Shown: positions 36,782-57,931 of the stretch, piece by piece
How positions within the stretch are numbered: the first letter of the stretch is position 1
How the letters are laid out: the number at the start of each line of letters is the position of its first letter
DNA from: Vogesella margarita
Lineage (GTDB): Bacteria > Pseudomonadota > Gammaproteobacteria > Burkholderiales > Chromobacteriaceae
DNA length: 64,000 nt
Direction of reading: 5' to 3'
NCBI RefSeq assembly: GCF_028548475.1
Contig: NZ_JAQQLE010000002.1
Span: forward strand, 310,001 to 374,000
Notes under the pieces: model-generated
The model's input: only the letters and a program-made list of their open reading frames with translations
Databases searched by the model: none
What the model was told of the DNA's origin: nothing
Translations under genes and position numbers: made by a program

Positions 36782-38146
36782 ATGGATCTGGCTAAGCGTC
36801 ACGTCATCGTTATCGGCCTGGGCGACACCGGCGTTTCCGCCGCGCGCTGGCTGCTGGCGCACGGTGCGCACGTCACCATCGCCGATAGTCGCGATCAGCC
36901 GGCCAATGCGGCCAACGTTGCGGCCGAGCTGGGCGTGTCGCTGCGCCTGGGGGCCTTCGCCGATGCCACCTTCGCCGACGCCGACATGCTGATGGTCAGC
37001 CCCGGCGTGAGCTGCCGCAGCCCGGCCATCGCCGACTTCGCCCGTCGTGGCGGCGAGGTGGTGGGTGACGTGGAATTGTGGGCGCGCGCCATTGCCGGCA
37101 GCGGCGCCAAGGTCATCGCCATTACCGGTTCCAACGGCAAGAGCACCGTCACCAGCCTGGTCGGTCACCTGTGCGAGGCCGCCGGACTGGATACGGTTGT
37201 CTGCGGCAATATTGGCTTGCCGGTGCTGACCGCGCTGGCCGAGCGCGAAGCCGCCGGCAAGCATCCTGACGTGTGGGTGGTCGAGCTGTCCAGCTTCCAG
37301 CTGGAAACCACCACCAGTCTGTGCGCTGATGCCGCCACGGTGCTGAACATTTCCGAAGACCATCTCGACCGTTACCACGACCTGCTCGATTACGCGCACA
37401 GCAAGACCGCCATCTTCAACGGCGACGGCGTGCAGGTGTTGAACCGCGACGACGTTTTCTGCCGCGCGATGGCGCGCGCCGGGCGTCGCATCGCGTGGTT
37501 CTCGCTGCGCGAGCAGGCCGATTACGCGCTGCAGCAGACGGATGGCTGTTATCGGCTGGCCATCGCCGGACAGCCGGTGTTCGACTGCGCCGACATGCCG
37601 CTGCAGGGCCTGCACAACGCGGCTAACGCGCTGGCGGCGCTGGCGCTGTGCGAGGCGATCGGCCTTGCGCGCGAACAGCTGCTGCCGGCACTGAAAACCT
37701 TCCGTGGCCTCGCGCACCGCGTCGAGTTCGTCGCCGAATTCGGCGGCGTGATGTACATCGACGACTCCAAGGGTACCAACGTCGGCGCCACCGAGGCGGC
37801 GCTGAACGGCATGACCCGCAAGGTGGTGCTGATCGCCGGCGGCGACGGCAAGGGCCAGGATTTCGCGCCGCTGGCGCCGGCCTGTGCCCGCATCGCCCGC
37901 GCGGTGGTGCTGATCGGTCGCGACGCACCGGCCATCCGCGCCGCACTGGCCGGCAGCGGCGTGCCGCTCACCGATTGCGCCACGCTGGAGGAGGCGACCC
38001 GCGTCGCCGCCGCACAGGCGCAAAGCGGCGACGTGGTGCTGCTGTCGCCGGCCTGCGCCAGCCTGGACATGTTCAAGAATTACGCGCATCGCGCCCAGGT
38101 GTTCATCGACAGCGTCGCGCAACTGCAAGCGGAGCAACCGTCGTGA
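36782..38146 (+). CDS. murD: UDP-MurNAc-L-alanine:D-glutamate ligase MurD
   Basis: ATP-dependent ligase adding D-glutamate to UDP-MurNAc-L-alanine. It has 454 aa: an N-terminal UDP-binding Rossmann domain ([13 protein letters not shown]), the central P-loop domain with [16 protein letters not shown] and the [10 protein letters not shown] segment, and the C-terminal domain with DDSKGTN. It begins 11 nt after mraY and ends in an overlap with ftsW. Confidence 0.96.
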
Positions 38147-39309
38147 TGAACGCCGCACGCAGCCACTATTCCCACGGCAGCGCCATCACCGTCATGGACG
38201 AGGCGCTGATGTGGGCGATTGCGCTGTTGCTGTCGATCAGCCTGGTGATGGTGTTCTCGGCATCGATTGCCTATGCCGAGGCCGATCCGGCCACCAACAG
38301 CCGCTACTTCTACCTGTTCCGCCACATGATCTTCATGACCATTGGCCTGGTTGGCGCCTACATCACCTTCCAGATACCGACCAGCATGTGGCAGCAGTAC
38401 GCGGGCAAGTTCTTCCTGCTGGCCGGCTTCCTGCTGATCCTGGTGCTGATCCCGGGCATCGGCAAGGTGGTGAACGGCTCGCGGCGCTGGATCAACCTGC
38501 TGGTGCTGAACCTGCAGCCGTCGGAAGTGATGAAGCTGGCGGCGGTGATCTACGCCGCCGACTACACCGTGCGCAAGGCGGCCAAGCTGCACAGTTTCAG
38601 CCAGGGCTTCCTGCCCATCCTGATGGCGATCGTGGTGGTGGCCTTCCTGCTGCTGGCGGAGCCGGACTTCGGCGCGCTGATGGTGGTGATGAGCATCACC
38701 ATGGGCATCGTGTTTCTGGGCGGCATCAACCTGCGCATCTTTGCCGGTCTGGCCGCGATGGCGGTGGTGGCGATCGTGCTGCTGATCGTGACCTCGCCGT
38801 ACCGCGTGAAGCGGGTGCTGGGTTTCCTCGATCCGTGGGAAGACCCGTACGGCAAGGGCTACCAGCTGTCGCACTCGCTGATCGCCATCGGCCGTGGTGA
38901 GTGGCTGGGGGTCGGCCTCGGCGGCAGCATCGAGAAGCTGTTCTACCTGCCGGAGGCGCACACCGACTTCATCATGGCGGTGATCTCGGAGGAATTCGGC
39001 TTCATCGGCATCTGCGTGGTGCTGGGGCTGTACGCGTGGATCGTGCGCCGAGCCTTCCATATCGGTACCGAGGCGAAGAAGCTGGAACGCTACTATCCGT
39101 CGCTGGTGGCGCAGGGCATCGGCATCTGGCTGGGCATCCAGACCTTCTTCAATGTCGGCGTGAACATGGGGCTATTACCGACCAAGGGCCTGACCCTGCC
39201 GCTGATGTCCTTCGGCGGCTCGGCCATGCTGTGCAACCTCGCGTCGCTGGCGGTGCTGCTGCGAGTGGATTATGAAAACCGACGCCTCATGCGCGGCTTC
39301 AAGGTTTAA
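38146..39309 (+). CDS. ftsW: Septal SEDS glycosyltransferase FtsW
   Basis: SEDS-family peptidoglycan polymerase of the divisome, partner of FtsI. It has 387 aa from ATG 38146 and about ten membrane helices, with [22 protein letters not shown]-type, AEPDFGALM and [13 protein letters not shown] segments. GTG 38143 is a serious alternative: it gives the GTGA overlap with murD and better spacing to GGAG at 38131. The final 29 bp are repeated 118 bp downstream (39399-39427). Confidence 0.95.
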
Positions 39310-39427
39310 GGTCGCGCATCAGGCTGCCGCAAGGCAGCAAGCCGCGCAGCGGCGTAGCCGGCGGGTTGTCCGAGGCGCGTAGCGGCGAAGGAAAAATTGA
39401 CGCCTCATGCGAGGTTTCAAGATTTAA
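39281..39427 (+). repeat. Direct repeat: the ftsW 3' end duplicated around an 89-bp insert
   Basis: Bases 39281-39309 (the last codons and stop of ftsW) recur at 39399-39427 with about four differences, and similarity extends a few bases upstream. The 89 bp between (39310-39398) contain the partial repeats CGCGCAGCGGCG and CGCGTAGCGGCG. The arrangement looks like a small intergenic element that carries or duplicated the gene end. Confidence 0.6.
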
Positions 39428-39434
39428 AGAATCA

Positions 39435-39460
39435 CGTTGCGGCCAACGTTGGCCGCAACG
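39435..39460. repeat. Perfect 26-bp palindrome of fused 12-mer arms
   Basis: Every base from 39435 to 39460 is symmetric about 39447/39448. It contains TTGCGGCCAAC and GTTGGCCGCAA head to head, i.e. two truncated copies of the dispersed motif. It lies between ftsW and murG, with no T-run next to it. Confidence 0.85.
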
Positions 39461-39502
39461 GCAATGAATAACCGGCAGGGCCGGAGCAAGAGAAAGCAAG
39501 AG

Positions 39503-40594
39503 ATGACAAAACGCACGGTGATGGTAATGGCGGCAGGCACGGGTGGACACATCGTCCCCGGCATCGCCGTTGCCCGCGAGCTGCAACGGCGCGGCTGGCA
39601 AGTGCTGTGGATCGGCACCGAGCGTGGCATGGAAAACAAGCTGGTGCCGCCGACCGGCATCCCGCTGATCCGGCTGGCGTTCCACGGCGTGCGCGGCAAG
39701 GGTTTGTTCGGTTCGTTCAAGGGTGTGCTGCAGCTGGGCGCCGCCTTCGTGCGCAGCCTGAAGCTGATGTTCGAACACCGCCCGGACGTGATCCTGGGCA
39801 TGGGCGGCTACGTGTGCCTGCCGACCGGTCTCGCCGGCGCGCTGCTGTGGAAGCCGCTGGTGATGGTCAACGCCGACGCCGGCCTGCTGCTGAGCAACAA
39901 GGCGCTGCTGCCGTTTGCCGACCATCTGGCCTGCGGCTTCGACGGCGAGGCCGCGCGCCTGAACAAGGCGGTGGTTACCGGCAACCCGGTGCGCGCCGAG
40001 ATCGAGCAGATGACACCGCCGGCCGAGCGTTTTGCCGGTCGTACTGGCCCGCTGCGCGTGCTGGTGGTGGGCGGCAGCCTGGGCGCCAAGGTGCTGAACG
40101 ATACCCTGCCGCAGGCGCTGGCGCTGCTGCCGGCCGAGGCACGGCCGCTGCTCACGCACCAGACCGGCGACAAGAACTTCGACGCGGTGCAGCAGGCGTA
40201 CGCCGCCGCCGGCCTCAAGGTTGGCCGCGACGTGACGCTGCTGCCCTTCATCGACAATATGGCCGCTCTGCTGGCCGACTGCGACGTGATCCTGTGCCGT
40301 GCCGGCGCGATCACCGTCAGCGAACTGTGCGCCGCCGGTGTGCCCAGCATCCTGGTGCCGCTGGTGGTGTCTACCACCTCGCACCAGCGCGACAACGCGG
40401 CGTGGATGGCGGCCCATGGCGCGGCCATCCACCTGCCGCAACAAGACATGAATCCGCAGCAACTGGCTGAGCTGTTGGGCGGTCTCACCCGTCCGCAGCT
40501 GCTGCAGATGGCCGAGCAGGCGCGAACGCTGGCCAAGCCGGCCGCGGCAGCCCGGGTGGCCGACCTGTGCCAGGCGCTGGCGGATAACGAATAG
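39503..40594 (+). CDS. murG: Lipid II synthase MurG
   Basis: Peripheral membrane GT28 glycosyltransferase that adds GlcNAc to lipid I. It has 363 aa with the N-terminal glycine-rich [11 protein letters not shown] loop, the GMGGYVCLP segment and, in the C-terminal domain, VVGGSLGAK and [20 protein letters not shown]-type motifs. ATG 39503 fits the family start; the frame is open upstream into the palindrome. It carries an exact 12-mer at 40217-40228 read as KVGR. It shares the leader GAGCAAGAGAA with murC. Confidence 0.96.
40217..40228 (+). repeat. Dispersed 12-mer, copy 13
   Basis: Exact copy inside murG, read as KVGR. Confidence 0.95.
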
Positions 40595-57696: not shown

Positions 57697-57699
57697 GGC

Positions 57700-57711
57700 A
57701 AGGTTGGCCGC
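57700..57711 (+). repeat. Dispersed 12-mer, copy 18
   Basis: Left arm of the perfect inverted pair after oppF. Confidence 0.95.
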
Positions 57712-57717
57712 AAGCCT

Positions 57718-57773: not shown

Positions 57774-57843
57774 CATGGCTGACGCGCAGGCCGGGCTGCG
57801 CTGCTTACGGTGGCGGGCGGGCCTGTCCTGTGCAGCAGGCGGC

Positions 57844-57855
57844 AAGGTTGGCCGC
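57844..57855 (+). repeat. Dispersed 12-mer, copy 20
   Basis: Exact copy in the oppF-secA gap. Confidence 0.95.
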
Positions 57856-57931
57856 AAGGCCTGCCGGTGGTGCCACTATCCGGCGCGGTCGTGACCGGGC
57901 GGGCACCGCCAGCGTTATCACGCTGCGCACT

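Follow-up and report, generated by a model that had tools for sequence, protein, structure and literature searches.

A decayed copy of a probable miniature foldback element at the end of ftsW in Vogesella margarita, and its structural relatives

The window analyzed here is a stretch of 64,000 nucleotides from Vogesella margarita (G000:C2:310001-374000 of the 3.33 Mb genome G000). Within it, the open reading frame listing places ftsW at 38137-39309 on the plus strand, with its closest relatives aligning in protein comparison with residues 1-390 of 38137-39306, and murG starts at 39503. It was noted that the end of ftsW is repeated: 39275-39309 and 39393-39427 form an ungapped direct repeat of 35 nt, 86% identical, with a period of 118. 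The original prediction had described the last 29 bp of ftsW, stop codon included, as recurring 118 bp downstream, and this was confirmed, the 29-nt core being the best-scoring part of the 35-nt match. The spacer measures 89 nt from the core, as had been counted earlier, and 83 nt between the 35-nt copies. The CGCG[C/T]AGCGGCG repeats reported inside the spacer were also recovered (18 nt, 83%) and correspond to the arms of two adjacent hairpins. When the window was scanned for direct repeats 35-499 bases apart, two were found above the threshold, with the ftsW-end repeat scoring highest, and three codon shuffles run through the same scan gave 0 repeats at that threshold. At its start, the spacer repeats the ftsW end in inverted orientation (19-nt arms at 39284-39302 and 39306-39324, 79% complementary), and this inverted copy belongs to a larger fold.

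The ftsW-murG gap was compared among relatives, as had been proposed at the outset, and both filled and empty sites were found. In Vogesella G001, G005 and G012, a single ftsW end is followed directly by the murG leader, with no insert. The second copy in the window (39393-39427 on the plus strand, termed E2) and the sequence just downstream of it correspond to the one ftsW end present in two of the empty relatives, G001 and G005, so that E2 is read as the displaced original end, and the first copy (E1) plus the spacer as the insert. Units of the same length as in the window, with both ends alike, were found in Vogesella G002, G007, G008, G009 and G010, while G003 has a full unit and a decayed E2, G004 and G011 hold shortened units, and G006 an enlarged and altered one. 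A scan across the secondary matches returned ftsW direct repeats in G000, G002, G007, G008 and G010. Short direct repeats at four other loci (L055, L064, L069 and L104) were seen in the same scan.

Across the Chromobacteriaceae, the gap was parsed in 58 of 61 genomes, a nearby murG being required; those left out were G021 and G059, which gave weak ftsW-like matches only, and G036, whose likely record (L130) has no unit. Sorting by eye placed a unit in 30 of the 58 parsed gaps and none in the remaining 28, close relatives included, with Vogesella and Aquitalea each having empty as well as filled sites. Mapped on a quick murG tree, this distribution required at least 13 changes of presence or absence, 9 of them forced by starred branches, and the empty sites may be losses. 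The number of units per filled gap is one to three, and two or three tandem units were found in Aquitalea G014, G017 and G018, Crenobacter G048 and Pseudogulbenkiania G060. The type found first in G058 (P. ferrooxidans) takes second position in G060 (P. subflava), an order which suggests that newer units adjoin the gene. All 58 gaps are at most 434 nt long and contain no larger element. In two more genomes of the family, only P2 (see below) or a shortened unit follows ftsW (L270:100-241 and L269:1341-1369), perhaps as remnants.

In the window, the element unit spans 118 bp (39279-39396, plus strand), lies 3' of AAAA (39275-39278), ends in AAAA (39393-39396) and is a decayed copy. We describe a unit as E1, the replacement ftsW end, plus X, a non-coding part that base-pairs with E1, with E2 then following downstream. 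The putatively element-borne E1 (39275-39309, plus strand) contains the last ten codons and the stop from 39277 onward. The features that follow are on the same strand. The P2 hairpin (39289-39319; arms 39289-39299 and 39309-39319) includes the ftsW stop codon and was recognized both in the fold and as an inverted repeat, and the P3 hairpin (39323-39338; GCTGCC-GCAA-GGCAGC) folds. The P4 hairpin (39341-39353; GCCGC-GCA-GCGGC) takes its position from a comparison with the unit of G003, these letters being paired otherwise in the best fold of the copy in the window. The 3' arm of P1 (39360-39367), partner of the E1 start from 39276, was placed by the same comparison and by covariation in relatives, and is partly decayed. 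The right-end hairpin P5 (39369-39392; TCC-GAG...CGAA-GGA) completes the unit; its Vogesella form occurs once each in 6 of the 13 genomes of the genus, always at ftsW, with G009 placed by sequence owing to a contig break.

The gap holds a second, separate feature, a perfect 26-nt palindrome at 39435-39460 (CGTTGCGGCCAACGTTGGCCGCAACG), which is also present in empty relatives. It was found at no fewer than 39 places in the genome of the window (40 of 551 candidates scored), and whole-query matches numbered 57-74 in G000, G001 and G003-G006, 10-17 in G002, G007-G010 and G012, and 49 in G011; it is a dispersed repeat that may be REP-like or act as a terminator. An 18-nt exact direct repeat elsewhere in the window (GGCAAGGTTGGCCGCAAG; 57697-57714 and 57841-57858, 144 nt apart) resembles half of this palindrome. 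In Chromobacterium L255, L256, L257 and L260, the ftsW-murG gap has an insert of another kind, a repeat whose arms are of the GGCGGAAGCCC and GGGCTTCCGCC types, which indicates that the spot tolerates several kinds of insert. In Craterilacuibacter (L268 / L122), a run of a 7-nt tandem repeat (GGGAGTA) begins soon after the ftsW stop.

A model (R1) was built from nine Aquitalea and Chromobacterium type A units. R1 matches the window at 39274-39396 with 47.2 bits (E 1.3e-8; whole genome E 4.9e-7) and seven Chromobacterium type B units at E 1.7e-18 to 1.3e-14. At E<=1, it gave 53 matches, including minus-strand matches to P2 only, and weak matches were seen in unit-free loci (L269, E 0.0045; L266, L265, L245, L280 and L272, E 0.045-0.54). 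Over 399 genomes of the order, with 9 candidates scored per genome and strict filters that passed over G004 and G011 with their shortened units, R1 returned 9 matches in 6 genomes, all at ftsW. The P5 pattern occurs at 15 places in 10 of the 61 family genomes, at ftsW by coordinates, and neither the P5 patterns nor the R1 searches found a unit away from ftsW in the Chromobacteriaceae. A search of the window's genome with the spacer gave no other copy, the next best match (L050) lying inside a 408-aa ORF. The refuting outcome named at the outset was a spacer with no second copy in its genome and shared by every relative; the searches gave no other copy here, but several relatives were without the insert.

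We then considered the fold. Intact units fold as a cloverleaf in which P1, formed by the start of E1 and the stretch before the last hairpin, encloses P2, P3 and P4, with P5 outside the cloverleaf at the right end of the unit. Five units were folded with DNA parameters: four from other species had z scores of -8.1, -8.2, -7.8 and -5.7, and the copy in the window, which folds poorly, had -1.9, a value reached by 9 of 200 shuffles. In a sequence-only alignment of 19 units, which excludes Vogesella, 95.6% of P1/P2 cells are paired compared to 85.1% in shuffles and at most 46.6% in slid versions. Two-sided changes were counted in 45 of these P1/P2 cells against 16.3 in shuffles (0 of 500 as high), and the score was 0.310 against 0.125. 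Only a slight excess was noted for pairs with a two-sided change (7 vs 5.3; 13 of 500 shuffles) and for further pair types (20 vs 17.5; 36 of 500). Alignments fitted to the structure, and thus leaning towards it, were paired at 93.5% (31 ftsW rows) and 97.7% (42 distinct dispersed rows, taken from the best 47 of 70 matches) compared to 76.5% and 84.5% in shuffles. RNAalifold on a mixed alignment was blurred, P2 being offset by two columns in Vogesella. E1 and X show covariation.

The hairpin loops were also tallied. Loops of the form cGNAg or cGNNAg make up 113 of 183 in dispersed units and 39 of 127 in ftsW units, and no more than 3 appeared in any of the five letter shuffles made for each set, in a tally made with DNA energy parameters that possibly favor such loops. 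Loops of this type, GCGAAGC included, are described as extraordinarily stable DNA mini-hairpins (PMC4686876). Since loop types that are stable in DNA are abundant, folded single-stranded DNA appears favored as the active form. A search of Rfam gave three matches on 39000-39700, all far under their gathering scores (best E 0.49), and none at E<=0.1 on six carrier loci. The terminator scan found no site inside the unit or on the sense strand, its three sites being on the minus strand outside the unit.

The codons at the end of ftsW were compared in 12 named records, chosen by hand and including no Vogesella; two of their 66 pairs are the most striking. P. subflava and P. ferrooxidans, whose unit types differ, are 97% identical over 900 nt upstream and agree at 45% of third positions across the final 11 codons. 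C. alkanivorans and Aquitalea LB, which share a unit type, are 86% identical upstream and 100% identical in the E1 codons. In the same records, the gene ends in AAG GTT TGA in all four that are unit-free, AAA GTG TAG in all five with type A units and AAG GTT TAG in all three with type B units, with the C-terminal peptide being nearly constant despite these codon differences. An exception outside the 12 records is G016, classed as type A yet ending in AAG GTG TAG. E1 codons thus follow unit type and not species, so that E1 belongs to the element in the genera of these records; in Vogesella, the window included, E1 would be part of the element as well. In Chromobacterium, E2 and the flank beyond it are similar behind type A and type B units, a pointer to exchange through homologous recombination.

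A looser form of the P5 pattern was searched exactly in the 399 order genomes, where a control pattern gave one match. Five genomes were matched, four of them at ftsW and one (G224), from another family, at nine places. The left end AAAACAAGGTTTATTT gave 89 matches in G224 with at most 2 mismatches, compared to 12 for the reversed pattern. Such dispersed units (42 distinct, from several genomes) are 84-113 nt long, have P1 (GGTTT/AAACC), three inner hairpins and P5, and often stand in tandem; they share the architecture, boundaries and P5 motif of the ftsW units and have other hairpin sequences. Their family is probably Neisseriaceae, to which uptake-sequence-like motifs beside the units presumably point. 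The original prediction had suggested a search for further copies next to gene ends; none was found in the window's genome, and dispersed units were found only in this other family and not beside duplicated gene ends.

A second model (R2) was built from four dispersed G224 units. Of the 83 genomes searched in the second family, 8 gave 14-47 matches each, four gave a single weak match and 71 gave none. The four weak matches (L357-L360, near position 1500) lie in arrays of short repeats in which AAAAC motifs flank GTTTCTGCGAAGC-like cores, and which may be a minimal version of this element. Over 106.8 kb, R2 matched nothing but units; its matches to ftsW units spanned the whole model in 16 of 23 sources, with nine matches at E<=0.01 (best 4e-6). 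Because it was the P5 motif that led to G224, R2 had that motif in common with the ftsW units at the outset, and some of the agreement is to be expected. Among the 23 sources, R2 had no match to the decayed copy of the window, to four other Vogesella loci or to Crenobacter, and it recovered the V. fluminis ftsW unit at E 0.024 only. From these comparisons, ftsW and dispersed units appear to form one structural class, the case being good for Chromobacterium and weak for Vogesella.

The surroundings of the dispersed units were examined for signs of mobility. AAAA stands at the start of 39 of 42 distinct units and at the end of 37, in matches to a model that includes, and so favors, these letters; a 4-bp target duplication is indistinguishable within such an A run. 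CTGAAAA precedes 11 of the 42. One unit (L310) interrupts a transposase ORF after GAAAA, the frame being 260 aa with the unit and 316 aa when the flanks are joined; this ORF has an HTH_38 match, with rve just below the cut-off. A unit with other hairpins was seen in another genome at the same codons (WEK) of a similar transposase remnant (L372:1501-1610). Frames of at least 80 codons enter 3 of the 42 units at the left end and, on the other strand, 2 at the right end, so that most dispersed units lie outside long frames. Among 28 dispersed units with no further unit after them, a direct repeat across the unit was found in one, and that repeat was another unit copy. Within 12-45 nt of the right end, GTTT[CG] occurs in 31 of the 42 dispersed units and GTT[TG][CG] in 24 of 33 ftsW units; the GTTT before P5 is absent from five Vogesella units (G002, G007-G010).

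A mobilizing enzyme and mobile carriers were also sought. With the single domain model PF01797, the IS200-type transposase was absent from 9 of 12 genomes, including G000 and the high-copy G224, and present in G023, G048 and G060. No mobilizing enzyme was identified in this way, and the absence of PF01797 from G224 and others suggests that the enzyme was lost or is of another kind. No match was found on phages. Viral contigs gave two matches, by eye one coding sequence, and none for a second pattern, and in plasmid records the only match was one of 47 nt in two chromosome-sized Neisseria gonorrhoeae records, which is probably the ftsW end itself.

Among described systems, IS200/IS605 elements (IS608) and their transposase-less derivatives resemble the units in their hairpin ends, in having no terminal inverted repeats that we could see, in head-to-tail arrays and in placement 3' of a short fixed motif that recurs at the right tip. 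IS608 inserts 3' of a tetranucleotide, and its cleavage sites pair with a guide located 5' of a hairpin (PMC5934647); the units have a possible guide tetranucleotide 5' of their last hairpin. However, they carry no transposase gene, PF01797 is missing from most genomes searched, the whole unit folds as a cloverleaf and its left end at ftsW doubles as coding sequence. REP, REPIN and BIME sequences (TnpA-REP, RAYT) are likewise small structured repeats with clusters and a hairpin logic, and the nearest precedent found is a report in which the 3' end of the rayt gene is built into a BIME in four cases (PMC2817692). The present units differ from these in their length of 84-127 nt, four hairpins and AAAA boundaries. 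REP sequences bear a GTAG (or CGTC) tag next to a palindrome of 20-40 nt; in the present units, GTAG as such was found in 24 of 33 at ftsW, often within the gene end GTGTAG, and in 6 of 42 dispersed ones, and CGTC in 3 of the 42. The Neisseria repeats NEMIS/Correia and dRS3 are also abundant and small in Neisseriaceae; NEMIS are listed as MITEs with 15-30 bp terminal inverted repeats, and dRS3 as CGTC palindromes (PMC3733652). In the present units, by contrast, CGTC is rare and no terminal inverted repeat of the DDE-type MITE kind (15-30 bp) was seen, P1 joining the left end in the folds to the 5' side of P5 and not to the right tip. Some integrative elements restore the 3' end of their target: they bring their own gene end, displace the original and accrete in tandem, as the units do, and the present unit differs in being 118 bp long and gene-less, in the conserved structure of the whole unit and in the lack of an integrase in the parsed gaps. 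Integron attC sites have paired RYYYAAC and GTTRRRY core sites and an integrase.

Taken together, we consider it probable that the insert in the window represents, in decayed form and with a length of 118 bp, a family of miniature foldback elements that have no genes and are AAAA-bounded on both sides. Weighing against this reading are the lack of any unit away from ftsW in the Chromobacteriaceae searches, so that homologous exchange could by itself account for movement at this site, the lack of a mobilizing enzyme in the genomes searched, the decayed state and poor DNA fold of the copy in the window and the missing GTTT of five Vogesella units. The mobile element originally proposed, one that copies or substitutes the end of the gene it enters, thus came close to the evidence, with E1 apparently both element-borne and coding, and E2 fitting a displaced original end.

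The strongest competing account, which we rate as appreciably less likely, is an old insertion at ftsW that now passes between species through natural transformation and whose gains and losses come from slippage or recombination, involving either E1 and E2 or the AAAAC repeats, with no transposition there any longer. The confinement of units to ftsW in the Chromobacteriaceae fits this account, as does the lack of a transposase in most of the carriers examined. E1 and E2 form a direct repeat of roughly 30 nt, and the similar E2 and flank of Chromobacterium type A and B units would follow from cassette exchange. However, it leaves the dispersed relatives in another family, one of them within a transposase gene, unexplained.

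It is improbable that the unit is instead a functional structure of the ftsW-murG mRNA, acting in processing, stability or attenuation, inherited and often lost. The unit does lie between two codirectional genes, its fold is conserved with covariation, and 39300-39470, which includes the separate palindrome, folds well as RNA (z -3.2). Yet 28 of 58 gaps are without a unit, close relatives included, and the same architecture is dispersed in a second family. Further, P5 is followed by A and not T, no terminator-like site was found in the unit, no Rfam family covers it and many of its loops are of the DNA-stable type.

Still less probable is the remnant of a tyrosine-recombinase island that used the ftsW end as its attachment site, E1 and E2 being attL and attR. 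Islands at gene ends restore the reading frame and stand head-to-tail, and E1 does restore the frame, with the head-to-tail units resembling such islands. Against this reading, the parsed gaps hold no larger element or integrase, no carrier was found on phages or viral contigs (the plasmid records giving only the 47-nt Neisseria gonorrhoeae match), the structural constraint extends over the whole unit and not a core site, and dispersed relatives occupy many sites. A simple tandem-duplication relic, the second possibility originally raised, would account for two direct copies of the ftsW end and is hardly credible, contradicted as it is by empty relatives with one end and no spacer and by an 83-nt spacer that has no counterpart beside the second copy.

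Returning to the mobile element, we read the insert as a miniature element of single-stranded-DNA type that is a fossil in the window. A guided single-strand mechanism is held with less confidence than the element itself, and we put it at somewhat under even. Under this mechanism, the mobile form would be a folded DNA single strand that is cleaved on the 3' side of AAAA at each end, and the GTTT before P5, judged by its complementarity, may base-pair with the AAAAC of either boundary and so serve as a guide of the IS200/IS605 kind. The ftsW unit is placed after GAAAA, and E1 encodes the last ten codons and the stop, with the original end downstream. Since the constraint is mainly on the fold and not on the letters, the 5' arms would have been free to spell the ftsW end, and could thereby have made insertion into an essential gene harmless. 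Homologous exchange is common in naturally transformable bacteria and probably helped to swap units between species.

As a tentative broader proposal, these units may represent an undescribed class of single-stranded-DNA foldback mobile elements in Neisseria-related bacteria, in which the fold, the AAAA boundaries and P5 are fixed and the arms are nearly free in sequence. One lineage would have captured the ftsW end as its 5' arm, replacing the last ten codons unit after unit without harm, and the mobilizer would be something other than an IS200-type transposase. No published name for the element was found in Rfam or in the literature searched, which did not extend to preprints and covered subscription journals thinly. 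A gene-less element of about 120 bp that rewrites the coding end of an essential division gene, and in which the pairing partner of those codons covaries with them, would be an unusual case of coding sequence co-written by a mobile DNA fold. With filled, empty and multi-unit alleles at one locus in many close species, the ftsW-murG gap offers a simple system for studying the insertion of gene-less structured DNA and for asking which enzyme moves it. It further indicates that synonymous codon variation at the end of a gene can stem from the turnover of an element, and not from selection or drift.
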